Below, in pieces: positions 43,003-64,000 of a stretch of 64,000 nt of DNA. Each line of letters begins with the position of its first letter. Within the stretch, counting starts at the first letter, position 1. Origin of the DNA: Schistocephalus solidus (Eukaryota > Platyhelminthes > Cestoda > Diphyllobothriidea > Diphyllobothriidae); the NCBI GenBank assembly GCA_017591395.1, contig WEDG01003357.1, positions 22,320 to 86,319 of the forward strand, written 5' to 3'. The notes beneath the pieces were generated by a model. The model had not been told where the DNA came from. It saw only the letters and a list, made by a program, of their open reading frames with translations, and ran no database searches. The translations under genes and the position numbers were made by a program.

Positions 43003-43051
<49 letters not shown>

Positions 43052-43150
43052 TGCGTAAAGATTCGAGGTCCCGATATCTTATCGCGTTCATCATCTCCTG
43101 AAGAAGATGAAGAAGAAGAGGGGGCGATTTCATGGACCAAATTGTATTTG

Positions 43151-43192
43151 TACTGACGTTTCGAAAGCCTTCTCGCTTCCATCATCAGAGTA
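43151..43192 (-). ncRNA. Type I hammerhead ribozyme of the PLE
   Basis: On the minus strand: stem I strand TACT (43192-43189); core CTGATGA (43188-43182); one extra U; stem II GGAAGC/GCTTTC with loop GAGAAG; GAA; the palindromic stem III ACGU; C17 at 43155; and stem I strand AGTA (43154-43151). All invariant core bases are present, and the predicted cut falls after GUC. Stem III has no loop of its own, so cleavage would be expected mainly in a dimer, as reported for PLE hammerheads. It overlaps the end of the ORF, so cleavage would set the 3' boundary of the element RNA. Confidence 0.8.
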
Positions 43193-45250
43193 AAGTGCTT
43201 GCTGTTCCTGGTGGTCTTGAGTTAGTCAGTCTTGCCGCGTGCCTCGTATTATATCTATGGTATACGCGTACACCATATATAAATATATAATGGATGTCCG
43301 GGTCAACATGGCGGTTGATACTGCCCGCACAGGAGTACCAAGCCTCGAGGAATTCCCTCGCTCCTTTCGTGTTGGCCATGGCGATGACCTCAGTTTCATC
43401 CCAATTGAATCGATGGTCGCACTCGAGTGCATGCGCAAAGACGAGGGACAAATGGTCTCGGCGGTGGACGGCTAGTTTGTGTTCATTAATGCGGGTGCCC
43501 AGGCGTCGACCCGTATGCCCAATATACACGCAAGAGCAATTTGCGCAAGGGATGCGATAAATTACGTTGGTTTGTTGATTTTTTTTGGGGATGGGATCCT
43601 TTATTGGGGATAGTGTGGTGCGTAGTGAGGATGCTGGCCTGTGAGCGACGTGTATACCAAGGCGATTAAACTGCCAAGCGATTACCTCAGAGGCCCCCTT
43701 CATATAAGGCAGGGAGTATAATTTTCATGCCACAATTTCTCCGTTTGGGATGGGGCCTTGCGGTTGTGCCTGGTGCCTGAGGCAGTTCTTTACAAAACTA
43801 ACCGGATACCCGTTACACCGCAACAACCGATATAGGTAAGCAAGCTCTTTTTTAAGGATATCCTCGCTGTTGCATTAACGGTATGTCCAGTGGAACAGAG
43901 TTGGGATGCAGCTTCTTTTGTGAGCTACTGGGTGGTTGCTTCCATAGTTGTGGATAATCTCAGCCTTAGATCCTTTCCTTTGGACGCTTTTTGCGAGACT
44001 ACCATCATGTAGATTTTGGATTCTAACTCCCAAAAATGGCAGGCTGGCTCCTACTGCCTCTTCACGAGTGAACTGTATGGCTGGGAAAACACCATTCAGC
44101 CTCTGATGCAGTTGCTCAACTTCGCAGTCCTTTATTACGACAAAGGTGTCATCTACATATCGAAGCCAGATTTTGGGCTTGAGAGTTTGGAAAAACTCTT
44201 CTTCTAGTCGTTGCAAAACCAATTCGGTGAGTAGTCCTGATATTGGCGAGCCCATTGGGGTACCCTTTACCTGTTGGTATTACTTATTGTCGAATTGACA
44301 GTAGTTCCTAAGGCAGAGCTTGTGCAGTTCTATAACATGTTGCGTTGGAATTTCAACGGGATTGTTCTGTAATCGTTGAGCTACGCATTCAATTGCCAAG
44401 TCATGCGGTATGGAAGAAAACAAGGCAACGACGTCGAAAGACAAGAGGCATTCATCAGTACTTACTTTGAGGCCTTTGATCCGTTGGAGGAATGCCTGAG
44501 AGTTGTTAATGCTGTTTTCGGATCCATGTGTTAGCTGCTTCAGGTGCCTGTACAACCACTTAGCTATGTTGTACGTAGGTGATCCGATCAGTGGCACTAT
44601 AATCCTCAGTGGGACATCTGGTTTGTGCACTTTCGGTAGACCGTATGCGCGTGCGATACGGGGATCTCCGAGGGTCATAAACTTTGAGTCAGCTGAACTT
44701 ATGACTTTCAGGCGAGCGAGCTCATTGGCCTTTTTCTTGATGACTGCGGCTTGCTTTTTTGTCGGGTCTTCGGCAAGAAAGGTGTAGGCCTCGATATCAC
44801 TGAATATGTTGTTCGCCTTATTAACGTAGTCATCTTTATCCATGATAACAGTAGCACCACCTTTGTCAGCGGGAACAACGACAATATTTTCATCCGATTT
44901 CAGTGATCGTAATCCTTGCGCTTCATCGGAAGGTAGGGTTAGCTGGCGTCTTTTTTGCCGAAGGATACCGGTGGCACAGCTGCGTATGTCCACGCGCATG
45001 TCACCTGGAAGGGCAGAAGTCAGTAGAATGGATTCAAGGTCAGCTAGGAAGTTGGTAGGTGTAGTATCCATGGGATTGAATCCTAATCCCTTCGATAGGA
45101 GGTTGAGTTCAGCAGGCAAGAGATTCCTTTAGAAAGGTTAACAACTCGAGTGGCCATGTTCTTTTTGGTCGTAAGGCGGACCAGAGATTGCAGTTTATCT
45201 TCTTCATTCTCGTATCTTTGACAGTTGCGTTAATTCTTTTCTTTACATTA
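43185..45250 (-). pseudogene. Penelope-like reverse transcriptase / GIY-YIG endonuclease, three in-frame stops
   Basis: One frame runs from 45119 to 43185 (about 645 codons), broken only by TAA at 44280-44282, TAA at 43875-43877 and TGA at 43725-43727. Upstream, DKLQSLVRL to RVVNLSKG (about 45130-45200) continues it after a 1-bp deletion near 45125. Domains in order: NLLSKGLGFNP; ADKGGATVIMDKDDY (N-terminal RT block); LPKVHKPDVPLRIIVPL; motif A SFDVVALFSSIP; motif B GTPMGSPISG; motif C RYVDDTFVVI with both catalytic Asp; LPFLGVRI; thumb HKRSCIPTL; linker VAHRPASSLRTTL; and GIY-YIG with VIYRIPCANC, YIGHTGRRLGTRINEH, EFLEAW (Glu) and INRHVDP (Asn). The CANC pair plus a later His fit the zinc-like motif of PLE endonucleases. 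The enzyme would nick DNA and copy element RNA in the nucleus. The damage is slight, so the insertion is recent. Confidence 0.92.
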
Positions 45251-45391: not shown

Positions 45392-45458
45392 ACACACAAA
45401 ATGGGATCGAATGAGATCCTAACAACATCAGTGAGTGTTACGCGCTTGTTTGAGTTGC
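45392..45458 (-). repeat. Retrozyme-like segment between (TA)n tracts
   Basis: ATGGGATCGAATGAGATCCT and GTGAGTGTTACGCGCTTGTT match the reverse complement of about 54 bp of the 232-bp repeat unit (48667-48720: CACTCACTAATGTGG, GGATCTCACTCGATCCCATT). It is bounded on both sides by (TA)n. The hammerhead part of the unit is missing. Confidence 0.6.
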
Positions 45459-45589
45459 ATATATATATATCCATAAAAATGATTATTCGAGGTCCAGATA
45501 CTTTATCACATTTATAATCTCCGGAAGAAGTCGAAGAAGCAGAGAGAGCGTGTTCATGGCCCATGAACTGAACTCAACCTTATAGGAAA

Positions 45590-47165: not shown

Positions 47166-47233
47166 ACATAGTTTACTAAAACAGGTCGGTGAACGTCACA
47201 CCAGCATATATATATATATATATATAAAATAAA

Positions 47234-47614
47234 GTTAAGTTCTTTGGGAACAAAATAACTTTATTGTGTAAATTTTCGAATCTGGTGCCCCAGTTCGTCG
47301 TCAGACAAATGGGAGATGTACAGAAAACAGTTAACCTTAAATAGTGCCTAACACAAGATTCTATGGTTGGCTAGAGTTTGAGCCAATAGACATCCAGAGT
47401 TTGAAGTTATCTGATCGATAGTGGCTGTTTTTGCATCAACTTGACCTTGAGAAATTTGTAATTGGTATCTAAATCGATATGCCTGTTAATGCATGCCTCG
47501 TCTGAGTGCATTACCTCCAGGAATTCGCGACCTCTTCTTGTTGGGCAGGCGCCAACGATGCGGGTATCCTCCCATCCAAATAGGTGTCCTGTGTCCAGTG
47601 TGTGCATGGCTACC
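47234..47614 (-). mobile_element. Inverted 3' end of a Penelope-like element (left arm of a 381-bp inverted repeat)
   Basis: The minus strand encodes the last 66 residues of a GIY-YIG endonuclease (GHLFGWEDTRIVGACPTRRG, REFLEVMHSDEACINRHIDL), its stop and the 3' UTR with hammerhead-like motif. It is nearly identical to 48110-48490 in inverted orientation, with only a few differences; the shared 66 residues differ at about three. The arm starts beside a (TA)n tract (47206-47226) and stops abruptly at 47614, where the opposite-strand RT sequence begins. Confidence 0.9.
47264..47310 (-). ncRNA. Hammerhead-like motif in PLE 3' UTR (left arm)
   Basis: Minus strand: stem I ATTTGT; core CTGACGA (47304-47298); one extra base; stem II built from CTGG/CCAG plus GAA/TTC; GAA; palindrome AAUU; U as the cleavable base; then ACACAA. 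Stem I pairs TGT with ACA. The core fits CUGANGA...GAA and H17 = U is allowed, but stems I and III are weak and AU-rich. Plausible but not certain. Confidence 0.5.
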
Positions 47615-48317
47615 TTGTCTCACAAACGCAGCTCTGTTAACAGCTTGCTACGCCGAGCAAAAACTCACTGTTCCGATGAAGAAACATATCGAACGGAAAT
47701 GAAATACCTTTTCAAATTATTTTCCCAAAATGGATATCCACCTGACTTTGTCCGTCGATGCATGCGACGACAACAGTTAAAAAGAAAAATGTATTCCCAG
47801 AGCTACGACCTCCCAGGCGTCAAAAACAAAAAACTGGCGAACCCTCCCGTATATAAAGAATGTATCTGAGCTCGTTGAAAGACAGCTCAAGAAACACAAT
47901 ATACAAATAGCGCACAAACCAACAACAACTTTGCGCACCCAGCTTGTACACCCTAAGGACAGGGTTGGCTATTTCAATAGAAAAGAAGTCGTCTACAAGA
48001 TACCGTGTACCAGTTGTGATGCAGTTTATTGTGGCCAAACCGGAAAACATATATCCACCCGTTTACAGGAACATCAGTTAGCGGTGAGGAGACGAGACAC
48101 TTTATCGCAGGTAGCCATGCACACACTGGACACAGGACACCTATTTGGATGGGAGGATACCCGCATCGTTGGCGCCTGCCCAACAAGAAGAGGCCGCGAA
48201 TTCCTGGAGGCAATGCACACAGACCAGGCATGCATTAACAGGCATATCGATTTAGATACCAATTACAAATTTCTCAAGGTCAAGTTGATGCAAAAACAAC
48301 CACTATCGATCAGATAA
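47615..48317 (+). pseudogene. 5'-truncated Penelope-like element: RT thumb and GIY-YIG endonuclease
   Basis: The plus strand begins inside the RT thumb (SHKRSSVNSLLRRAKTHC, then MKYLFKLFSQNGYPPDFVRR). A one-base shift near 47846 leads into SELVERQLKKHNIQIAHKPT, then LVHPKDRVGY, then the endonuclease: VVYKIPCTSCDAVYCGQTGK, STRLQEHQLAVRRRD, GHLFGWEDTRIVG, REFLEAMHTDQACINRHIDL. YCGQTG replaces YIGQTG; the Arg, Glu and Asn positions are kept. The palm motifs A-C are absent, so no RT activity. The left edge is joined to an inverted copy of this element's own 3' end. The 62.5-kb fragment belongs to the same subfamily (LVHPKDRVGY). Confidence 0.88.
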
Positions 48318-48490
48318 CTTCAAACTCTGGATGTCTATTGGCTCAAACTCTAGCCAACCATAGAATCTTGTGTTAGGCACTTTTTAAGGTTAACTGTTTT
48401 CTGTACATCTCCCATTTGTCTGACGATGAACTGGGGCACCAGATTCGAAAATTTACACAATAAAGTTATTTTGTTCCCAAAGAACTTAAC
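48110..48490 (+). mobile_element. PLE 3' end (right arm of the 381-bp inverted repeat)
   Basis: Covers the last 66 codons of the GIY-YIG ORF, the stop at 48315-48317 and a UTR of about 170 bp ending CCCAAAGAACTTAAC. Its partner is 47234-47614 and the spacer is 495 bp. Confidence 0.9.
48414..48460 (+). ncRNA. Hammerhead-like motif in PLE 3' UTR (right arm)
   Basis: ATTTGT, CTGACGA (48420-48426), stem II with CTGG GGCA CCAG, GAA (48447-48449), AAUU, U (48454), ACACAA. Same structure and caveats as the left-arm copy. A decayed relative is at 63032-63075. Confidence 0.5.
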
Positions 48491-48587
48491 ATTATTTAAT
48501 TAAATTTCTTGGGATGCCGATATTTCAGTATATATATATATATATATATATATAGCACAAATATGTTGCTAAGAGTGCAACAGGCAA

Positions 48588-48632
48588 GACGCAGACAGCT
48601 GTTTCACGGTCATTACCGATCATCAGTACATC
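48588..48632 (-). ncRNA. Type I hammerhead ribozyme, retrozyme unit 1
   Basis: Minus strand: stem I GATGTA; core CTGATGA; stem II CGGT/ACCG with loop AATG and an unpaired U on each side; GAA; stem III palindrome ACAGCUGU; C17; stem I TGCGTC. Stem I pairs over six bases (two G-U). All invariant core bases are present. The U-U apposition where a G-C pair usually closes stem II is the one unusual feature. Confidence 0.8.
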
Positions 48633-48819
48633 ATATGCCTTGTGCAGTGAGGTACATAAACAAGCCAAACAAGTGCGCAACACTCACTAATGTGGTAAGG
48701 ATCTCACTCGATCCCATTTGTCCGCCCGCCAGTTACCTACCGGCGATAAACGAACGTTGTGTCATAGGACACATACCATATATATAGCACAAATATGTTG
48801 CTAAGAGTGCAACAGGCAA

Positions 48820-48864
48820 GACGCAGACAGCTGTTTCACGGTCATTACCGATCATCAGTACATC
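48820..48864 (-). ncRNA. Type I hammerhead ribozyme, retrozyme unit 2
   Basis: Same sequence and fold as unit 1, exactly 232 bp further on. Cleavage at two successive sites on a minus-strand transcript would release a 232-nt RNA. Confidence 0.8.
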
Positions 48865-49051
48865 ATATGCCTTGTGCAGTGAGGTACATAAACAAGCCAA
48901 ACAAGTGCGCAACACTCACTAATGTGGTAAGGATCTCACTCGATCCCATTTGTCCGCCCGCCAGTTACCTACCGGCGATAAACGAACGTTGTGTCATAGG
49001 ACACATACCATATATATAGCACAAATATGTTGCTAAGAGTGCAACAGGCAA

Positions 49052-49096
49052 GACGCAGACAGCTGTTTCACGGTCATTACCGATCATCAGTACATC
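49052..49096 (-). ncRNA. Type I hammerhead ribozyme, retrozyme unit 3
   Basis: Same sequence as units 1 and 2. This unit is truncated 44 bp after the motif, at the inversion point. Confidence 0.8.
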
Positions 49097-49249
49097 ATAT
49101 GCCTTGTGCAGTGAGGTACATAAACAAGCCAAACAAGTGCCGGTAGGTAACTGGCGGGCGGACAAATGGGATCGAGTGAGATCCTTACCACATTAGTGAG
49201 TGTTGCGCACTTGTTTGGCTTGTTTATGTACCCTCACTGCACAAGGCAT

Positions 49250-49294
49250 GATGTACTGATGATCGGTAATGACCGTGAAACAGCTGTCTGCGTC
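49250..49294 (+). ncRNA. Type I hammerhead ribozyme, inverted retrozyme unit
   Basis: On the plus strand: GATGTA (49250-49255), CTGATGA (49256-49262), CGGT/ACCG stem II (49264-49267 and 49272-49275), GAA (49277-49279), ACAGCUGU (49280-49287), C17 (49288), TGCGTC (49289-49294). Because this copy is inverted, transcripts from either strand of the array contain a hammerhead. Confidence 0.8.
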
Positions 49295-49451
49295 TTGCCC
49301 TGTTGCACTCTTAGCAACATATTTGTGCTATATATATGGTATGTGTCCTATGACACAACGTTCGTTTATCGCCGGTAGGTAACTGGCGGGCGGACAAATG
49401 GGATCGAGTGAGATCCTTACCACATTAGTGAGTGTTGCGCACTTGCTTTGG

Positions 49452-49453
<2 letters not shown>

Positions 49454-49503
<50 letters not shown>
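49454..49503. repeat. (TA)n microsatellite
   Basis: About 25 TA units directly at the right end of the retrozyme array. Other (TA)n tracts are at 43004-43046, 45371-45391, 45459-45470, 47206-47226 and 48529-48554; all border PLE or retrozyme ends. Confidence 0.95.
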
Positions 49504-49505
<2 letters not shown>

Positions 49506-49559
49506 AGTGTATGGCTCACCGATCTGCTTAAGGAACATTGACGTTCCGTTGCACCCTGG

Positions 49560-49753
49560 AACTCAGACAAGAGTACTCACAGGAAGTCGCATAGCGACGT
49601 GTAGCATATGTTGATAATGTGGAACCGACAAAGACAAGGGAGACCGGAATGGCCATTTCTGGCTTATTAGCCGTCATCAGCCAGTCATACCCAATCCCAA
49701 GTGTGGAACAACTTGGAATTGGGTATGACTAGCTAATGATGGCTTATAAGACA
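49560..49753 (-). repeat. SINE in reverse, with inverted duplication of its 5' body
   Basis: 49575-49700 is the reverse complement of the SINE body and tail (GTCGCATAGCGAC, GGGAGACCGGAATGGCCATT, TTATTAGCCGTCATCAGCC). 49663-49707 (GTCATACCCAATCCCAAG) is then repeated inverted at 49709-49752 (CTTGGAATTGGGTATGAC), giving a palindrome with arms of about 40 bp. The satellite begins immediately after it. Confidence 0.7.
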
Positions 49754-52700
49754 GATCTAGTTGCTTCCCGAAGCAAACAAGCTCCGTATGGGTGGCAAAG
49801 GTCACGAACAGGCAACCAATTACCAGGCCGAAGTCGGCCAAGTTATAATTGCAGAGAGGAGACACGACAGAGAATATGGGTAGATTGATACAGTCTGTTT
49901 CGGGCTTATTCTGCCTTCATTCAGCCAATCATAACCCTGACTACCAGCTGGGACTGGAAACACAAACATGCACTCGAGTACGGCGCAGACAGTCCACACA
50001 CTGGGTCTAGCAGATGGGTCATAAGCACTTCATCGAACCGAAGTTCATCAGTGCCTCACCACCTGTCATTCTCTGTCGCTGCAGATCGGGTATTTATTCA
50101 AACAGGAATAGGCGCACACCGATCTAGTGGCTTCCCGAAGCAAACAAGCTCCGTATGGGTGGCAAAGGTCACGAACAGGCAACCACTACCAGGCCGAAGT
50201 CGGCCAAGTTATAATTGCAGAGAGGAGACACGACAGAGAATATGGGTAGATTGATACAGTCTGTTTCGGGCTTATTCTGCCTTCATTCAGCCAATCATAA
50301 CCCTGACTACCAGCTGGGACTGGAAACACAAACATGCACTCGAGTACGGCGCAGACAGTCCACACACTGGGTCTAGCAGATGGGTCATAAGCACTTCATC
50401 GAACCGAAGTTCATCAGTGCCTCACCACCTGTCATTCTCTGTCGCTGCAGATCGGGTATTTATTCAAACAGGAATAGGCGCACACCGATCTAGTGGCTTC
50501 CCGAAGAAAAACAAGCTCCGTATGGGTGGCAAAGGTCACGAACAGGCAACCAATTACCAGGCCGAAGTCGGCCAAGTTATAATTGCAGAGAGGAGACACG
50601 ACAGAGAATATGGGTAGATTGATACAGTCTGTTTCGGGCTTATTCTGCCTTCATTCAGCCAATCATAACCCTGACTACCAGCTGGGACTGGAAACACAAA
50701 CATGCACTCGAGTACGGCGCAGACAGTCCACACACTGGGTCTAGCAGATGGGTCATAAGCACTTCATCGAACCGAAGTTCATCAGTGCCTCACCACCTGT
50801 CATTCTCTGTCGCTGCAGATCGGGTATTTATTCAAACAGGAATAGGCGCACACCGATCTAGTGGCTTCCCGAAGCAAACAAGCTCCGTATGGGTGGCAAA
50901 GGTCACGAACAGGCAACCAATTACCAGGCCGAAGTCGGCCAAGTTATAATTGCAGAGAGGAGACACGACAGAGAATATGGGTAGATTGATACAGTCTGTT
51001 TCGGGCTTATTCTGCCTTCATTCAGCCAATCATAACCCTGACTACCAGCTGGGACTGGAAACACAAACATGCACTCGAGTACGGCGCAGACAGTCCACAC
51101 ACTGGGTCTAGCAGATGGGTCATAAGCACTTCATCGAACCGAAGTTCATCAGTGCCTCACCACCTGTCATTCTCTGTCGCTGCAGATCGGGTATTTATTC
51201 AAACAGGAATAGGCGCACACCGATCTAGTGGCTTCCCGAAGCAAACAAGCTCCGTATGGGTGGCAAAGGTCACGAACAGGCAACCAATTACCAGGCCGAA
51301 GTCGGCCAAGTTATAATTGCAGAGAGGAGACACGACAGAGAATATGGGTAGATTGATACAGTCTGTTTCGGGCTTATTCTGCCTTCATTCAGCCAATCAT
51401 AACCCTGACTACCAGCTGGGACTGGAAACACAAACATGCACTCGAGTACGGCGCAGACAGTCCACACACTGGGTCTAGCAGATGGGTCATAAGCACTTCA
51501 TCGAACCGAAGTTCATCAGTGCCTCACCACCTGTCATTCTCTGTCGCTGCAGATCGGGTATTTATTCAAACAGGAATAGGCGCACACCGATCTAGTGGCT
51601 TCCCGAAGCAAACAAGCTCCGTATGGGTGGCAAAGGTCACGAACAGGCAACCAATTACCAGGCCGAAGTCGGCCAAGTTATAATTGCAGAGAGGAGACAC
51701 GACAGAGAATATGGGTAGATTGATACAGTCTGTTTCGGGCTTATTCTGCCTTCATTCAGCCAATCATAACCCTGACTACCAGCTGGGACTGGAAACACAA
51801 ACATGCACTCGAGTACGGCGCAGACAGTCCACACACTGGGTCTAGCAGATGGGTCATAAGCACTTCATCGAACCGAAGTTCATCAGTGCCTCACCACCTG
51901 TCATTCTCTGTCGCTGCAGATCGGGTATTTATTCAAACAGGAATAGGCGCACACCGATCTAGTGGCTTCCCGAAGCAAACAAGCTCCGTATGGGTGGCAA
52001 AGGTCACGAACAGGCAACCAATTACCAGGCCGAAGTCGGCCAAGTTATAATTGCAGAGAGGAGACACGACAGAGAATATGGGTAGATTGATACAGTCTGT
52101 TTCGGGCTTATTCTGCCTTCATTCAGCCAATCATAACCCTGACTACCAGCTGGGACTGGAAACACAAACATGCACTCGAGTACGGCGCAGACAGTCCACA
52201 CACTGGGTCTAGCAGATGGGTCATAAGCACTTCATCGAACCGAAGTTCATCAGTGCCTCACCACCTGTCATTCTCTGTCGCTGCAGATCGGGTATTTATT
52301 CAAACAGGAATAGGCGCACACCGATCTAGTGGCTTCCCGAAGCAAACAAGCTCCGTATGGGTGGCAAAGGTCACGAACAGGCAACCACTACCAGGCCGAA
52401 GTCGGCCAAGTTATAATTGCAGAGAGGAGACACGACAGAGAATATGGGTAGATTGATACAGTCTGTTTCGGGCTTATTCTGCCTTCATTCAGCCAATCAT
52501 AACCCTGACTACCAGCTGGGACTGGAAACACAAACATGCACTCGAGTACGGCGCAGACAGTCCACACACTGGGTCTAGCAGATGGGTCATAAGCACTTCA
52601 TCGAACCGAAGTTCATCAGTGCCTCACCACCTGTCATTCTCTGTCGCTGCAGATCGGGTATTTATTCAAACAGGAATAGGCGCACACCGATCTAGTGGCT

Positions 52701-55700
52701 TCCCGAAGCAAACAAGCTCCGTATGGGTGGCAAAGGTCACGAACAGGCAACCACTACCAGGCCGAAGTCGGCCAAGTTATAATTGCAGAGAGGAGACACG
52801 ACAGAGAATATGGGTAGATTGATACAGTCTGTTTCGGGCTTATTCTGCCTTCATTCAGCCAATCATAACCCTGACTACCAGCTGGGACTGGAAACACAAA
52901 CATGCACTCGAGTACGGCGCAGACAGTCCACACACTGGGTCTAGCAGATGGGTCATAAGCACTTCATCGAACCGAAGTTCATCAGTGCCTCACCACCTGT
53001 CATTCTCTGTCGCTGCAGATCGGGTATTTATTCAAACAGGAATAGGCGCACACCGATCTAGTGGCTTCCCGAAGCAAACAAGCTCCGTATGGGTGGCAAA
53101 GGTCACGAACAGGCAACCAATTACCAGGCCGAAGTCGGCCAAGTTATAATTGCAGAGAGGAGACACGACAGAGAATATGGGTAGATTGATACAGTCTGTT
53201 TCGGGCTTATTCTGCCTTCATTCAGCCAATCATAACCCTGACTACCAGCTGGGACTGGAAACACAAACATGCACTCGAGTACGGCGCAGACAGTCCACAC
53301 ACTGGGTCTAGCAGATGGGTCATAAGCACTTCATCGAACCGAAGTTCATCAGTGCCTCACCACCTGTCATTCTCTGTCGCTGCAGATCGGGTATTTATTC
53401 AAACAGGAATAGGCGCACACCGATCTAGTGGCTTCCCGAAGCAAACAAGCTCCGTATGGGTGGCAAAGGTCACGAACAGGCAACCAATTACCAGGCCGAA
53501 GTCGGCCAAGTTATAATTGCAGAGAGGAGACACGACAGAGAATATGGGTAGATTGATACAGTCTGTTTCGGGCTTATTCTGCCTTCATTCAGCCAATCAT
53601 AACCCTGACTACCAGCTGGGACTGGAAACACAAACATGCACTCGAGTACGGCGCAGACAGTCCACACACTGGGTCTAGCAGATGGGTCATAAGCACTTCA
53701 TCGAACCGAAGTTCATCAGTGCCTCACCACCTGTCATTCTCTGTCGCTGCAGATCGGGTATTTATTCAAACAGGAATAGGCGCACACCGATCTAGTGGCT
53801 TCCCGAAGCAAACAAGCTCCGTATGGGTGGCAAAGGTCACGAACAGGCAACCAATTACCAGGCCGAAGTCGGCCAAGTTATAATTGCAGAGAGGAGACAC
53901 GACAGAGAATATGGGTAGATTGATACAGTCTGTTTCGGGCTTATTCTGCCTTCATTCAGCCAATCATAACCCTGACTACCAGCTGGGACTGGAAACACAA
54001 ACATGCACTCGAGTACGGCGCAGACAGTCCACACACTGGGTCTAGCAGATGGGTCATAAGCACTTCATCGAACCGAAGTTCATCAGTGCCTCACCACCTG
54101 TCATTCTCTGTCGCTGCAGATCGGGTATTTATTCAAACAGGAATAGGCGCACACCGATCTAGTGGCTTCCCGAAGCAAACAAGCTCCGTATGGGTGGCAA
54201 AGGTCACGAACAGGCAACCAATTACCAGGCCGAAGTCGGCCAAGTTATAATTGCAGAGAGGAGACACGACAGAGAATATGGGTAGATTGATACAGTCTGT
54301 TTCGGGCTTATTCTGCCTTCATTCAGCCAATCATAACCCTGACTACCAGCTGGGACTGGAAACACAAACATGCACTCGAGTACGGCGCAGACAGTCCACA
54401 CACTGGGTCTAGCAGATGGGTCATAAGCACTTCATCGAACCGAAGTTCATCAGTGCCTCACCACCTGTCATTCTCTGTCGCTGCAGATCGGGTATTTATT
54501 CAAACAGGAATAGGCGCACACCGATCTAGTGGCTTCCCGAAGCAAACAAGCTCCGTATGGGTGGCAAAGGTCACGAACAGGCAACCAATTACCAGGCCGA
54601 AGTCGGCCAAGTTATAATTGCAGAGAGGAGACACGACAGAGAATATGGGTAGATTGATACAGTCTGTTTCGGGCTTATTCTGCCTTCATTCAGCCAATCA
54701 TAACCCTGACTACCAGCTGGGACTGGAAACACAAACATGCACTCGAGTACGGCGCAGACAGTCCACACACTGGGTCTAGCAGATGGGTCATAAGCACTTC
54801 ATCGAACCGAAGTTCATCAGTGCCTCACCACCTGTCATTCTCTGTCGCTGCAGATCGGGTATTTATTCAAACAGGAATAGGCGCACACCGATCTAGTGGC
54901 TTCCCGAAGCAAACAAGCTCCGTATGGGTGGCAAAGGTCACGAACAGGCAACCAATTACCAGGCCGAAGTCGGCCAAGTTATAATTGCAGAGAGGAGACA
55001 CGACAGAGAATATGGGTAGATTGATACAGTCTGTTTCGGGCTTATTCTGCCTTCATTCAGCCAATCATAACCCTGACTACCAGCTGGGACTGGAAACACA
55101 AACATGCACTCGAGTACGGCGCAGACAGTCCACACACTGGGTCTAGCAGATGGGTCATAAGCACTTCATCGAACCGAAGTTCATCAGTGCCTCACCACCT
55201 GTCATTCTCTGTCGCTGCAGATCGGGTATTTATTCAAACAGGAATAGGCGCACACCGATCTAGTGGCTTCCCGAAGCAAACAAGCTCCGTATGGGTGGCA
55301 AAGGTCACGAACAGGCAACCAATTACCAGGCCGAAGTCGGCCAAGTTATAATTGCAGAGAGGAGACACGACAGAGAATATGGGTAGATTGATACAGTCTG
55401 TTTCGGGCTTATTCTGCCTTCATTCAGCCAATCATAACCCTGACTACCAGCTGGGACTGGAAACACAAACATGCACTCGAGTACGGCGCAGACAGTCCAC
55501 ACACTGGGTCTAGCAGATGGGTCATAAGCACTTCATCGAACCGAAGTTCATCAGTGCCTCACCACCTGTCATTCTCTGTCGCTGCAGATCGGGTATTTAT
55601 TCAAACAGGAATAGGCGCACACCGATCTAGTGGCTTCCCGAAGCAAACAAGCTCCGTATGGGTGGCAAAGGTCACGAACAGGCAACCAATTACCAGGCCG

Positions 55701-58700
55701 AAGTCGGCCAAGTTATAATTGCAGAGAGGAGACACGACAGAGAATATGGGTAGATTGATACAGTCTGTTTCGGGCTTATTCTGCCTTCATTCAGCCAATC
55801 ATAACCCTGACTACCAGCTGGGACTGGAAACACAAACATGCACTCGAGTACGGCGCAGACAGTCCACACACTGGGTCTAGCAGATGGGTCATAAGCACTT
55901 CATCGAACCGAAGTTCATCAGTGCCTCACCACCTGTCATTCTCTGTCGCTGCAGATCGGGTATTTATTCAAACAGGAATAGGCGCACACCGATCTAGTGG
56001 CTTCCCGAAGCAAACAAGCTCCGTATGGGTGGCAAAGGTCACGAACAGGCAACCAATTACCAGGCCGAAGTCGGCCAAGTTATAATTGCAGAGAGGAGAC
56101 ACGACAGAGAATATGGGTAGATTGATACAGTCTGTTTCGGGCTTATTCTGCCTTCATTCAGCCAATCATAACCCTGACTACCAGCTGGGACTGGAAACAC
56201 AAACATGCACTCGAGTACGGCGCAGACAGTCCACACACTGGGTCTAGCAGATGGGTCATAAGCACTTCATCGAACCGAAGTTCATCAGTGCCTCACCACC
56301 TGTCATTCTCTGTCGCTGCAGATCGGGTATTTATTCAAACAGGAATAGGCGCACACCGATCTAGTGGCTTCCCGAAGCAAACAAGCTCCGTATGGGTGGC
56401 AAAGGTCACGAACAGGCAACCAATTACCAGGCCGAAGTCGGCCAAGTTATAATTGCAGAGAGGAGACACGACAGAGAATATGGGTAGATTGATACAGTCT
56501 GTTTCGGGCTTATTCTGCCTTCATTCAGCCAATCATAACCCTGACTACCAGCTGGGACTGGAAACACAAACATGCACTCGAGTACGGCGCAGACAGTCCA
56601 CACACTGGGTCTAGCAGATGGGTCATAAGCACTTCATCGAACCGAAGTTCATCAGTGCCTCACCACCTGTCATTCTCTGTCGCTGCAGATCGGGTATTTA
56701 TTCAAACAGGAATAGGCGCACACCGATCTAGTGGCTTCCCGAAGCAAACAAGCTCCGTATGGGTGGCAAAGGTCACGAACAGGCAACCAATTACCAGGCC
56801 GAAGTCGGCCAAGTTATAATTGCAGAGAGGAGACACGACAGAGAATATGGGTAGATTGATACAGTCTGTTTCGGGCTTATTCTGCCTTCATTCAGCCAAT
56901 CATAACCCTGACTACCAGCTGGGACTGGAAACACAAACATGCACTCGAGTACGGCGCAGACAGTCCACACACTGGGTCTAGCAGATGGGTCATAAGCACT
57001 TCATCGAACCGAAGTTCATCAGTGCCTCACCACCTGTCATTCTCTGTCGCTGCAGATCGGGTATTTATTCAAACAGGAATAGGCGCACACCGATCTAGTG
57101 GCTTCCCGAAGCAAACAAGCTCCGTATGGGTGGCAAAGGTCACGAACAGGCAACCAATTACCAGGCCGAAGTCGGCCAAGTTATAATTGCAGAGAGGAGA
57201 CACGACAGAGAATATGGGTAGATTGATACAGTCTGTTTCGGGCTTATTCTGCCTTCATTCAGCCAATCATAACCCTGACTACCAGCTGGGACTGGAAACA
57301 CAAACATGCACTCGAGTACGGCGCAGACAGTCCACACACTGGGTCTAGCAGATGGGTCATAAGCACTTCATCGAACCGAAGTTCATCAGTGCCTCACCAC
57401 CTGTCATTCTCTGTCGCTGCAGATCGGGTATTTATTCAAACAGGAATAGGCGCACACCGATCTAGTGGCTTCCCGAAGCAAACAAGCTCCGTATGGGTGG
57501 CAAAGGTCACGAACAGGCAACCAATTACCAGGCCGAAGTCGGCCAAGTTATAATTGCAGAGAGGAGACACGACAGAGAATATGGGTAGATTGATACAGTC
57601 TGTTTCGGGCTTATTCTGCCTTCATTCAGCCAATCATAACCCTGACTACCAGCTGGGACTGGAAACACAAACATGCACTCGAGTACGGCGCAGACAGTCC
57701 ACACACTGGGTCTAGCAGATGGGTCATAAGCACTTCATCGAACCGAAGTTCATCAGTGCCTCACCACCTGTCATTCTCTGTCGCTGCAGATCGGGTATTT
57801 ATTCAAACAGGAATAGGCGCACACCGATCTAGTGGCTTCCCGAAGCAAACAAGCTCCGTATGGGTGGCAAAGGTCACGAACAGGCAACCAATTACCAGGC
57901 CGAAGTCGGCCAAGTTATAATTGCAGAGAGGAGACACGACAGAGAATATGGGTAGATTGATACAGTCTGTTTCGGGCTTATTCTGCCTTCATTCAGCCAA
58001 TCATAACCCTGACTACCAGCTGGGACTGGAAACACAAACATGCACTCGAGTACGGCGCAGACAGTCCACACACTGGGTCTAGCAGATGGGTCATAAGCAC
58101 TTCATCGAACCGAAGTTCATCAGTGCCTCACCACCTGTCATTCTCTGTCGCTGCAGATCGGGTATTTATTCAAACAGGAATAGGCGCACACCGATCTAGT
58201 GGCTTCCCGAAGCAAACAAGCTCCGTATGGGTGGCAAAGGTCACGAACAGGCAACCAATTACCAGGCCGAAGTCGGCCAAGTTATAATTGCAGAGAGGAG
58301 ACACGACAGAGAATATGGGTAGATTGATACAGTCTGTTTCGGGCTTATTCTGCCTTCATTCAGCCAATCATAACCCTGACTACCAGCTGGGACTGGAAAC
58401 ACAAACATGCACTCGAGTACGGCGCAGACAGTCCACACACTGGGTCTAGCAGATGGGTCATAAGCACTTCATCGAACCGAAGTTCATCAGTGCCTCACCA
58501 CCTGTCATTCTCTGTCGCTGCAGATCGGGTATTTATTCAAACAGGAATAGGCGCACACCGATCTAGTGGCTTCCCGAAGAAAAACAAGCTCCGTATGGGT
58601 GGCAAAGGTCACGAACAGGCAACCAATTACCAGGCCGAAGTCGGCCAAGTTATAATTGCAGAGAGGAGACACGACAGAGAATATGGGTAGATTGATACAG

Positions 58701-61700
58701 TCTGTTTCGGGCTTATTCTGCCTTCATTCAGCCAATCATAACCCTGACTACCAGCTGGGACTGGAAACACAAACATGCACTCGAGTACGGCGCAGACAGT
58801 CCACACACTGGGTCTAGCAGATGGGTCATAAGCACTTCATCGAACCGAAGTTCATCAGTGCCTCACCACCTGTCATTCTCTGTCGCTGCAGATCGGGTAT
58901 TTATTCAAACAGGAATAGGCGCACACCGATCTAGTGGCTTCCCGAAGCAAACAAGCTCCGTATGGGTGGCAAAGGTCACGAACAGGCAACCAATTACCAG
59001 GCCGAAGTCGGCCAAGTTATAATTGCAGAGAGGAGACACGACAGAGAATATGGGTAGATTGATACAGTCTGTTTCGGGCTTATTCTGCCTTCATTCAGCC
59101 AATCATAACCCTGACTACCAGCTGGGACTGGAAACACAAACATGCACTCGAGTACGGCGCAGACAGTCCACACACTGGGTCTAGCAGATGGGTCATAAGC
59201 ACTTCATCGAACCGAAGTTCATCAGTGCCTCACCACCTGTCATTCTCTGTCGCTGCAGATCGGGTATTTATTCAAACAGGAATAGGCGCACACCGATCTA
59301 GTGGCTTCCCGAAGCAAACAAGCTCCGTATGGGTGGCAAAGGTCACGAACAGGCAACCAATTACCAGGCCGAAGTCGGCCAAGTTATAATTGCAGAGAGG
59401 AGACACGACAGAGAATATGGGTAGATTGATACAGTCTGTTTCGGGCTTATTCTGCCTTCATTCAGCCAATCATAACCCTGACTACCAGCTGGGACTGGAA
59501 ACACAAACATGCACTCGAGTACGGCGCAGACAGTCCACACACTGGGTCTAGCAGATGGGTCATAAGCACTTCATCGAACCGAAGTTCATCAGTGCCTCAC
59601 CACCTGTCATTCTCTGTCGCTGCAGATCGGGTATTTATTCAAACAGGAATAGGCGCACACCGATCTAGTGGCTTCCCGAAGCAAACAAGCTCCGTATGGG
59701 TGGCAAAGGTCACGAACAGGCAACCAATTACCAGGCCGAAGTCGGCCAAGTTATAATTGCAGAGAGGAGACACGACAGAGAATATGGGTAGATTGATACA
59801 GTCTGTTTCGGGCTTATTCTGCCTTCATTCAGCCAATCATAACCCTGACTACCAGCTGGGACTGGAAACACAAACATGCACTCGAGTACGGCGCAGACAG
59901 TCCACACACTGGGTCTAGCAGATGGGTCATAAGCACTTCATCGAACCGAAGTTCATCAGTGCCTCACCACCTGTCATTCTCTGTCGCTGCAGATCGGGTA
60001 TTTATTCAAACAGGAATAGGCGCACACCGATCTAGTGGCTTCCCGAAGCAAACAAGCTCCGTATGGGTGGCAAAGGTCACGAACAGGCAACCAATTACCA
60101 GGCCGAAGTCGGCCAAGTTATAATTGCAGAGAGGAGACACGACAGAGAATATGGGTAGATTGATACAGTCTGTTTCGGGCTTATTCTGCCTTCATTCAGC
60201 CAATCATAACCCTGACTACCAGCTGGGACTGGAAACACAAACATGCACTCGAGTACGGCGCAGACAGTCCACACACTGGGTCTAGCAGATGGGTCATAAG
60301 CACTTCATCGAACCGAAGTTCATCAGTGCCTCACCACCTGTCATTCTCTGTCGCTGCAGATCGGGTATTTATTCAAACAGGAATAGGCGCACACCGATCT
60401 AGTGGCTTCCCGAAGAAAAACAAGCTCCGTATGGGTGGCAAAGGTCACGAACAGGCAACCAATTACCAGGCCGAAGTCGGCCAAGTTATAATTGCAGAGA
60501 GGAGACACGACAGAGAATATGGGTAGATTGATACAGTCTGTTTCGGGCTTATTCTGCCTTCATTCAGCCAATCATAACCCTGACTACCAGCTGGGACTGG
60601 AAACACAAACATGCACTCGAGTACGGCGCAGACAGTCCACACACTGGGTCTAGCAGATGGGTCATAAGCACTTCATCGAACCGAAGTTCATCAGTGCCTC
60701 ACCACCTGTCATTCTCTGTCGCTGCAGATCGGGTATTTATTCAAACAGGAATAGGCGCACACCGATCTAGTGGCTTCCCGAAGAAAACAAGCTCCGTATG
60801 GGTGGCAAAGGTCACGAACAGGCAACCAATTACCAGGCCGAAGTCGGCCAAGTTATAATTGCAGAGAGGAGACACGACAGAGAATATGGGTAGATTGATA
60901 CAGTCTGTTTCGGGCTTATTCTGCCTTCATTCAGCCAATCATAACCCTGACTACCAGCTGGGACTGGAAACACAAACATGCACTCGAGTACGGCGCAGAC
61001 AGTCCACACACTGGGTCTAGCAGATGGGTCATAAGCACTTCATCGAACCGAAGTTCATCAGTGCCTCACCACCTGTCATTCTCTGTCGCTGCAGATCGGG
61101 TATTTATTCAAACAGGAATAGGCGCACACCGATCTAGTGGCTTCCCGAAGCAAACAAGCTCCGTATGGGTGGCAAAGGTCACGAACAGGCAACCAATTAC
61201 CAGGCCGAAGTCGGCCAAGTTATAATTGCAGAGAGGAGACACGACAGAGAATATGGGTAGATTGATACAGTCTGTTTCGGGCTTATTCTGCCTTCATTCA
61301 GCCAATCATAACCCTGACTACCAGCTGGGACTGGAAACACAAACATGCACTCGAGTACGGCGCAGACAGTCCACACACTGGGTCTAGCAGATGGGTCATA
61401 AGCACTTCATCGAACCGAAGTTCATCAGTGCCTCACCACCTGTCATTCTCTGTCGCTGCAGATCGGGTATTTATTCAAACAGGAATAGGCGCACACCGAT
61501 CTAGTGGCTTCCCGAAGCAAACAAGCTCCGTATGGGTGGCAAAGGTCACGAACAGGCAACCAATTACCAGGCCGAAGTCGGCCAAGTTATAATTGCAGAG
61601 AGGAGACACGACAGAGAATATGGGTAGATTGATACAGTCTGTTTCGGGCTTATTCTGCCTTCATTCAGCCAATCATAACCCTGACTACCAGCTGGGACTG

Positions 61701-62481
61701 GAAACACAAACATGCACTCGAGTACGGCGCAGACAGTCCACACACTGGGTCTAGCAGATGGGTCATAAGCACTTCATCGAACCGAAGTTCATCAGTGCCT
61801 CACCACCTGTCATTCTCTGTCGCTGCAGATCGGGTATTTATTCAAACAGGAATAGGCGCACACCGATCTAGTGGCTTCCCGAAGCAAACAAGCTCCGTAT
61901 GGGTGGCAAAGGTCACGAACAGGCAACCAATTACCAGGCCGAAGTCGGCCAAGTTATAATTGCAGAGAGGAGACACGACAGAGAATATGGGTAGATTGAT
62001 ACAGTCTGTTTCGGGCTTATTCTGCCTTCATTCAGCCAATCATAACCCTGACTACCAGCTGGGACTGGAAACACAAACATGCACTCGAGTACGGCGCAGA
62101 CAGTCCACACACTGGGTCTAGCAGATGGGTCATAAGCACTTCATCGAACCGAAGTTCATCAGTGCCTCACCACCTGTCATTCTCTGTCGCTGCAGATCGG
62201 GTATTTATTCAAACAGGAATAGGCGCACACCGATCTAGTGGCTTCCCGAAGCAAACAAGCTCCGTATGGGTGGCAAAGGTCACGAACAGGCAACCAATTA
62301 CCAGGCCGAAGTCGGCCAAGTTATAATTGCAGAGAGGAGACACGACAGAGAATATGGGTAGATTGATACAGTCTGTTTCGGGCTTATTCTGCCTTCATTC
62401 AGCCAATCATAACCCTGACTACCAGCTGGGACTGGAAACACAAACATGCACTCGAGTACGGCGCAGACAGTCCACACACTG
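49754..62481. repeat. 367-bp satellite array, about 34.7 copies
   Basis: Successive units (landmark GATCTAGTGGCTTCCCGAAG) recur every 366-368 bp from 49754 to 62481. The copies are almost identical; the differences seen are CCACTACC for CCAATTACC in units near 50185, 52385 and 52751, and GAAGAAAAAC or GAAGAAAAC for GAAGCAAAC near 50505, 58579, 60415 and 60782. On the minus strand the unit contains a diverged SINE body (GATTGGCTGAATGAAGGCAG, AATAAGCCCGAAAC; compare GACTGGCTGATGACAGCTAA, TAAGCCCGAAAG near 47050) and a B-box-like GGTTCGATGA. Local hairpins include GGCCGA/TCGGCC and GCACT...AGTGC. Open frames of 66-67 codons exist only in variant units and are not genes. Confidence 0.95.
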
Positions 62482-63153: not shown

Positions 63154-63185
63154 ATATATATATATATATATATATAAATATAAAA

Positions 63186-63275
<90 letters not shown>
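63154..63275. repeat. Long imperfect (TA)n microsatellite
   Basis: About 120 bp of TA repeats with a few AAATATAAAAA and TGTA interruptions between the PLE fragment and the second satellite block. The Ile-Tyr open frames across it are artefacts. Confidence 0.95.
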
Positions 63276-63279
<4 letters not shown>

Positions 63280-63946
63280 AAACAGGAATAGGCGCACACC
63301 GATCTAGTGGCTTCCCCGAAGCAAAACAAGCTCCGTATGGGTGGCAAAGGTCACGAACAGGCAACCAATTACCAGGCCGAAGTCGGCCAAGTTATAATTG
63401 CAGAGAGGAGACACGACAGAGAATATGGGTAGATTGATACAGTCTGTTTCGGGCTTATTCTGCCTTCATTCAGCCAATCATAACCCTGACTACCAGCTGG
63501 GACTGGAAACACAAACATGCACTCGAGTACGGCGCAGACAGTCCACACACTGGGTCTAGCAGATGGGTCATAAGCACTTCATTGAACCGAAGTTCATCAG
63601 TGCCTCACCACCTGTCATTCTCTGTCGCTGCAGATCGGGTATTTATTCAAACAGGAATAGGCGCACACCGATCTAGTGGCTCCCCGAAGCAAACAAGCTC
63701 CGTATGGGTGGCAAAGGTCACGAACAGGCAACCAATTACCAGGCCGAAGTCGGCCAAGTTATAATTGCAGAGAGGAGACACGACAGAGAATATGGGTAGA
63801 TTGATACAGTCTGTTTTCGGGCTTATTCTGCCTTCATTCAGCCAATCCTAACCCTGACTACCAGCTGGGACTGGAAACACAAACATGCACTCGAGTACGG
63901 CGCAGACAGTCCACACACTGGGTCTAGCAGATGGGTCATAAGCACT
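63276..63946. repeat. 367-bp satellite, second block (about 1.8 copies)
   Basis: Same unit as 49754-62481, with more private changes (CTTCCCCGAAGCAAAAC, CATTGAACC, GGCTCCCCGAAG, CAATCCTAACC). Ends at GGGTCATAAGCACT, after which 63947-64000 shows nothing recognisable. Confidence 0.92.
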
Positions 63947-64000
63947 ATCATGGAATCTTGTTTGATGTTCGCAATACGTAACTGAACGAAGTATACCGAA

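Follow-up and report, generated by a model that had tools for sequence, protein, structure and literature searches.

A 232-bp tandem repeat of Schistocephalus solidus, a probable hammerhead retrozyme whose copies mostly end at (TA)n tracts

In a stretch of 64,000 nucleotides from the tapeworm Schistocephalus solidus (the window in the following), a 232-bp sequence is repeated in tandem and each full unit carries a predicted hammerhead ribozyme. This raises the question of what kind of element the repeat is, and by which route its copies reached their present sites. Our analysis suggests, with a probability of about 0.7, that it is a non-autonomous retrozyme, which would spread by means of a self-cut circular RNA, copied from (TA)n primers with the help of a Penelope-like element. 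In build and way of life the 232-bp element is probably a retrozyme; the cleavage, the RNA circle and the Penelope helper are what we infer from its sequence and its surroundings.

The repeat and its Penelope-like neighbours

As found with Tandem Repeats Finder, the direct array has a period of 232 bp, with 2.6 copies and 100% matches at 48546-49140. It runs on the minus strand (48546..49140) and comprises 2.56 identical units. An inverted block of 1.41 units on the plus strand (49139..49463) is 97.6% identical to the direct units and overlaps the direct array by 2 bp at the joint. The exact period and the near identity of the units given in the preliminary description were thus borne out. With unit positions counted from the predicted cut in the hammerhead sense, the direct array has its 3' end at position 48, at 48546 within the left TA tract, and its 5' end at position 150, at the inner joint; the inverted block has its 5' end at position 82 at the joint and its 3' end at position 164-173, in the right TA tract. 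The left (TA)n tract (48529..48554) lies between the repeat and a Penelope-like element, and the right one (49454..49501) between the repeat and a fragment of a 303-bp family. A 67-bp relic of the unit on the plus strand (45399..45465; positions 107-173, 83.6%) likewise ends in a TA tract, and any target site duplication at the 232-bp copies is masked by the TA tract. The unit has a GC content of 45.7% and is itself free of reverse transcriptase (RT) and GIY-YIG genes. No A or B box was found in it with our own box patterns, and no tRNA gene was detected by ARAGORN in the window and four sampled loci.

Penelope-like element 1 (43047..45128, minus strand) contains RT and GIY-YIG pieces, is split over several frames and has its 3' end in a TA tract. 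The Pfam search covered the Penelope pieces, and the eight longest open reading frames of the window were listed. The RT piece (43875-44279, minus strand) matched RVT_1 at 27.2 bits (E 3.8e-6), slightly under the cut-off of 29.6, and the GIY-YIG piece (43185-43724, minus strand) scored 23.3 bits, over the cut-off of 22.6. The upstream piece (44280-45128, minus strand) had no Pfam match and has RT relatives: it matched 155 proteins at E <= 0.001, and among the best 120 of these the nearest were from Spirometra, Sparganum, Schistocephalus and Dibothriocephalus. Near the 3' end of this element we found a minimal hammerhead of the Penelope type with an ACGU stem III (43155..43192, minus strand). 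Its CTGATGA...GAAACGTC is kept in three of seven aligned Penelope copies (element 1, L046:1232 and L046:321), and we read a compensated stem II change in the L046 copies. The Penelope copies in loci L057, L058 and L049 have a changed hammerhead core, and the copy at 45485 has no hammerhead.

Penelope-like element 2 (47224..48528) is arranged head to head, with its 3' ends outward at 47224 (minus strand) and 48528 (plus strand), both at TA, and its right end is 28 bp longer than its left. Its GIY-YIG piece (47781-48317; PF01541) scored 18.9 bits, below the cut-off of 22.6. We further found nine TA runs of at least 12 bp in the window, in seven tracts, all of them beside Penelope or hammerhead-repeat sequence; the run at 63154 lies about 48 bp from a Penelope match. 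By our count 11 of 14 Penelope ends are TA-flanked, which is not independent evidence because these ends were taken only near retrozymes. We name Penelope as the putative helper because of the RT and GIY-YIG pieces, the TA flanks and the head-to-head form of element 2, a circumstantial basis.

The copies could instead have been retrotransposed to TA sites by another enzyme, such as that of a LINE, or at spontaneous cruciform breaks of (TA)n, in either case without the Penelope endonuclease. (TA)n is known as fragile, and the tie between the Penelope enzyme and the copies is circumstantial, which speaks for such a route. However, the Penelope elements of the window, to which this comparison was confined, are themselves TA-flanked, one of them is head to head and one has its own minimal hammerhead, and we consider this route rather unlikely, though worth serious attention.

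The predicted hammerhead and its relatives in two other repeats

On the minus strand, each unit of the direct copies reads GCA-UAU-GAUGUA-CUGAUGA-U-CGGU-AAUG-ACCG-U-GAA-ACAGCUGU-C-UGCGUC-U-UGC. We searched with a descriptor comprising the core (CUGANGA, GAAA, U16.1-H17) and stems of at least 3 (II), 5 (I) and 2 (III) pairs. It matched five places in the window, compared with one hit in total in 300 Markov-simulated sequences of window length. Predicted type I hammerheads lie in direct copies 1 to 3 (48584..48638, 48816..48870 and 49048..49102, all on the minus strand) and in the inverted block (49246..49298, plus strand); the fifth place lies at 49640-49680 on the minus strand. The direct copies were also found with covariance model R1, which was built partly from the 232-bp family and from which the 73.5 bits of the first copy derive. 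The inverted hammerhead scored 62.9 bits and is without two of the three bases of the stem I internal loop. A slightly looser descriptor gave 280 matches in the window and 38 loci, a count in which one place may appear repeatedly.

The preliminary description had claimed a complete hammerhead in every full unit, and descriptor and family comparison indeed found the type I fold in each of them. All four positions that it gave were recovered by the descriptor, with the strand corrected to minus for the three direct copies and plus for the inverted one. The predicted cut falls after the C of ACAGCUGU-C, at 48594/48593, 48826/48825 and 49058/49057 on the minus strand and at 49288/49289 on the plus strand. 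Stem I does contain the 6 bp described before, but extends beyond them, through a UAU/U internal loop, into at least three further pairs. Stem III is present too, but its strand ACAGCUGU is a palindrome: a single RNA can close only about two pairs over a 4-base loop, and all four pairs require two hammerheads together. Pair 10.1-11.1 beside the core is U.U in the 232-bp hammerhead, whereas it is G-C in most known hammerheads.

Two neighbouring repeats share the hammerhead. The fragment of the 303-bp family (49497..49710, minus strand) reaches into the TA tract with its 3' end, at position 149, and has a predicted hammerhead at 49638..49692 (minus strand), found by descriptor and covariance model. 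The 303-bp family is tandem and has a tRNA-like head (RF00005, 33.4 bits, cut-off 29), A and B boxes and the hammerhead. A 367-bp tandem repeat (49754..62481, minus strand) was found with Tandem Repeats Finder in 34.7 copies and holds 35 hammerhead-like motifs by covariance model. This model was built from the 232- and 303-bp families and not from the 367-bp motifs, and was run over 37 of the 39 sources (226,464 bases). In the 367-bp satellite it matched 36 identical motifs at 37.6 bits, the 36th at 63428-63485, and a weaker one at 63795. The core of these motifs, CUGAAUGA, has one extra A compared with the standard one, and because of this extra base their activity is doubtful. A second stretch of the 367-bp satellite (63275-64000) begins at a (TA)n tract.

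Outside the hammerhead, the 232-, 303- and 367-bp units have no BLAST match of more than 10 bases to one another. At the 18 positions compared across the three units, ten pairs differ in both bases yet remain paired and six are unchanged, while one fails in the 367-bp unit. None of the three has a standard pair 10.1-11.1 in stem II: it is U.U (48816-48870), C.A (49638-49692) and A.C (50245-50302), possibly a trait of this lineage. Compensatory changes between the families occur in all three stems; stem III carries less weight as evidence because its strand is palindromic. In an 11-row alignment that includes old copies and the 367-bp unit, 10 of 17 pairs are changed on both sides and 94.7% of the cells pair, against 31-51% in slid structures, and in a seven-row alignment 99.2% pair, against 30-50%; the rows were picked among the hits of a descriptor or model that itself scores pairing, which inflates these percentages. 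All three units have the same unpaired UAU/U loop in stem I, which would fit the loop contact of type I hammerheads. This comparison between families shows the predicted hammerhead fold.

A match to a hammerhead model, which the preliminary description had named as a check, was not obtained from Rfam. In a search that had no positive control, its hammerhead models gave no match in the 232-bp region at E <= 10, none above the gathering score in the window and none to the 303-bp unit, and RF00163 matched in none of 14 control genomes. The lack of a match is likely explained by the shortness of stem III and by the U.U beside the core, where G-C is usual. Rfam rows for miRNAs and pestiviruses in the region were taken as chance, as all were below their cut-offs and most lay on the TA tract. 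A search of viral contigs with exact patterns for either hammerhead, that of the 232-bp and that of the 303-bp unit, gave no hit.

In the minimum-energy fold of the 232-bp RNA the hammerhead core does not form. Folding of 61 nt pairs the CUG of the core with the CAG of stem III (z -1.11; 30 of 200 shuffles equally good), and a fold of the 232 circle constrained to the hammerhead, with stem III left unpaired, lies 4.2 kcal/mol above the free fold; the figure for the 303 circle under the same constraint is 3.2 kcal/mol. An apparent extra conservation of the hammerhead inside the 232-bp family was dropped, as it came from an edge bias in units opened at the hammerhead itself; with four other cut points, the difference in conservation between the hammerhead and the rest of the unit was not significant.

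It might be argued from this that the motif resembles a hammerhead but does not cut. The Rfam result, the U.U beside the core, the preference of energy folding for other pairing, the lack of extra conservation inside the family and the extra base in the 367-bp core all point that way. On the other hand, the three units, otherwise unrelated, keep the core and the stem I loop and show ten compensated pairs, which makes a motif that does not cut improbable. In our view, the covariation between the families outweighs the absent Rfam match.

Ends and polarity of the genomic copies

With one unit as the query, the 232-bp unit has at least 278 matches in the 604-Mb genome (8019 contigs), so that the genome-wide search proposed in the preliminary description returned dispersed copies. 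The sample consists of the best of the 278 matches, on 37 contigs: the window and 38 further stretches, with 38 arrays (two on contig C1729). It represents young copies because best matches were favoured, and the array consensuses differ by 0-1.3% from the family consensus. BLAST and chaining yielded 60 blocks, of which 51, in 37 loci, were kept. Nine were excluded by hand, namely four relics of low identity (72.5-83.6%), three pieces of only 25, 75 and 92 bp, and both halves of the array on contig C191. Arrays reach 19.5 units in the analysed blocks and about 37 units on contig C191. As 43 of the 51 kept blocks exceed one unit, the template would have been circular or multimeric.

The 3' ends of the copies cluster at TA. 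Thirty-one of the 51 kept blocks end at positions 43-49, which fall in UAUAUAUAU after position 39 (site A), and 18 at 161-173, at GUUUAUGUA after position 164 (site B), where most copies exit the unit after GGCUU into TATATA. The remaining two end at position 136, also at TA, and at position 186, without TA. Over all 60 blocks the classes are 32 A, 20 B and 8 other. A TA run of at least 12 bp lies within 40 bp of the 3' end in 45 of the 51 blocks, compared with 2.0% of 18,500 positions taken from these loci as background. Ranked by how well they would pair with a TA primer, site A came first and site B fifth of the 232 unit positions. An apparent spacing of sites A and B by exactly half the circle was rejected as an effect of BLAST ends; the last copied bases are about 124 of 232 apart. 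The array of about 37 units on C191 (L064:1097-1485) ends at position 33, where it abuts 367-bp satellite without TA.

The 5' ends, in contrast to the 3' ends, are scattered over the unit (chi-square p 0.09, ten bins). Nine of the 51 blocks have theirs in a hot spot at 82-88 (p 2e-5, with the interval chosen afterwards), and two, against about 0.4 expected, have theirs at position 1 or 232, as template run-off at the cut site would leave them. Among single arrays, 12 of 23 have a TA run of at least 12 bp in the 5' flank. The hot spot at 82-88 coincides with a predicted hairpin of the unit RNA.

Head-to-head order (minus-plus, with both 3' ends outward) prevails: it was found in 14 of the 37 loci, and tail-to-tail order in none among the kept blocks. 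Without exclusions, the head-to-head order occurs in 15 of 39 sources and the tail-to-tail order in three: in L061, with blocks 102 bp apart that include the 92-bp piece of 87.8%; in L037, with blocks 940 bp apart that include a relic of 79.5%; and in the window, with blocks 3 kb apart, by way of the relic at 45399. Priming from the two 3' DNA ends of one break would produce this head-to-head order with outward 3' ends. In 13 head-to-head pairs both ends could be classed, and ten of these combine A and B, while the pooled frequencies predict about six (p 0.026), as if two primers had met on one circle. At the joints, the blocks overlap by 1-9 bp in seven loci (by only 1-2 bp, the chance level, in five of these) and by 31 bp in one, abut in one, and have 8-320 bp between them in five.

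If the repeat is a retrozyme, these features could be understood as follows. Tandem copies would be transcribed and the transcript cut by the hammerhead of each unit, which should work best where two copies form the palindromic stem III together, and the unit-length RNA would be circularised to 232 nt. A reverse transcriptase of the Penelope type, equipped with a GIY-YIG endonuclease, would open (TA)n DNA, whose TA 3' end would pair with the RNA where this is rich in UA, chiefly at site A or site B. Reverse transcription running round the circle would then leave a tandem cDNA that is fixed at its 3' end but variable at its 5' end; with both broken ends priming, two cDNAs would meet head to head and be joined. 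LINE-1 elements are known for twin priming, in which two primers from one break give rise to inverted insertions; here, in contrast, both primers would sit on a circle or multimer, and the target would be (TA)n.

The arrays are near-identical and head-to-tail, as would also be seen if ordinary satellite DNA had re-integrated from extrachromosomal DNA circles by recombination at TA, with the hammerhead as a passenger. The unit does hold TATATATAT, which could recombine with (TA)n, and re-integration of circles has been raised for the schistosome W elements in the available text of PMC8490949. However, such copies should start and stop at the same unit position, whereas only the 3' ends are clustered; the head-to-head excess would be left unexplained, and so would site B, where the unit has no TA run. 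We therefore regard this origin as very unlikely. Assembly or library artefacts from fold-back reads, which are known to give rise to inverted repeats, are a hardly credible source of the head-to-head forms: the joints differ between loci, and in 11 of the 14 head-to-head loci no 14-mer of one 700-bp flank recurs inverted in the other (the flanks of the remaining three, where this does occur, hold 303-family sequence).

In the 303-bp family, 37 blocks of at least 85% identity and uncut by a locus edge were counted, and there are again two 3'-end sites, with nine blocks ending at 26-39 and 14 at 139-150. TA runs accompany seven and 12 of these ends (19 of 23). The other 14 blocks end elsewhere, ten of them at the end of the query itself. 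These sites rank only 30 and 24 of 303 for pairing with a TA primer, and the pairing rule is weaker in this family.

Relation to known hammerhead repeats

According to the main text of PMC7229834, the non-LTR retrozymes of metazoans are tandem units of 150-450 bp with a GC content below 50% and a type I hammerhead each, present in many copies. They are further defined by the absence of LTR, PBS and PPT, by a target site duplication that, if any, exceeds 4 bp, by self-cleaving RNA, and by linear and circular unit-length RNA in tissue. In unit size, GC content, tandem and dispersed copies and one type I hammerhead per unit, the 232-bp repeat resembles them, in agreement with its first reading as a retrozyme; that reading is supported as to identity, but had missed the mode of insertion and the two neighbouring hammerhead families. 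In contrast to our copies, no (TA)n target, fixed 3' end or head-to-head array is described in the sections of PMC7229834 considered here; in its main text "microsatellite" and "target site" each occur zero times, and platyhelminths are named once, without detail. Penelope elements are given there as a strong candidate for the helper of metazoan retrozymes (PMC7229834; Cervera and de la Peña, 2020), and so far as those sections go the integration route and enzyme of animal retrozymes stand at this one candidate. Among the titles and abstract openings listed by our searches of the open-licence literature, none indicated a cestode hammerhead or a (TA)n target of retrozymes or Penelope elements. 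We judge the junctions to be a more valuable part of the finding than the identity of the retrozyme: copies keep them readable, and the circular-template model can thus be tested from sequence in any retrozyme genome.

More generally, animal hammerhead satellites might arise by rolling reverse transcription of ribozyme-made circles from both broken ends of (TA)n, through Penelope machinery. The three families, unrelated in sequence, would then share no more than the ribozyme and a priming site that contains UA. We put this forward tentatively, at slightly less than even odds. Satellite DNA could in this way originate from RNA and, if the reading is true, a sequence with a ribozyme and a primer site would need nothing further to become a satellite.

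The minimal hammerheads of Penelope elements have a short stem III and likely act as dimers (Cervera and de la Peña, 2014; Lünse, 2017, as reported in PMC7761336 and PMC6155905). The 232-bp hammerhead shares the short stem III and the likely dimeric action, but has a two-part stem I whose internal loop is kept between families. The hammerhead of newt satellite 2 is likewise part of a satellite DNA, in another host; as summarised in PMC6155905, it is most active in dimeric form, with helix III elongated, and it is likened to ours by this description.

The Sm-alpha and W elements of Schistosoma are repeats with type I hammerheads, one of them SINE-like, and three tested candidates were active (PMC8490949, available text); no TA target is described for them in that text. 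Compared with the SINE-like Sm-alpha, the 232-bp unit is without pol III (tRNA-like) promoter boxes, whereas the 303-bp family likewise has a tRNA-like part. With its tRNA-like part and its hammerhead, the 303-bp family (L057:798-1554; window 49497-49710) looks like a SINE and a retrozyme combined.
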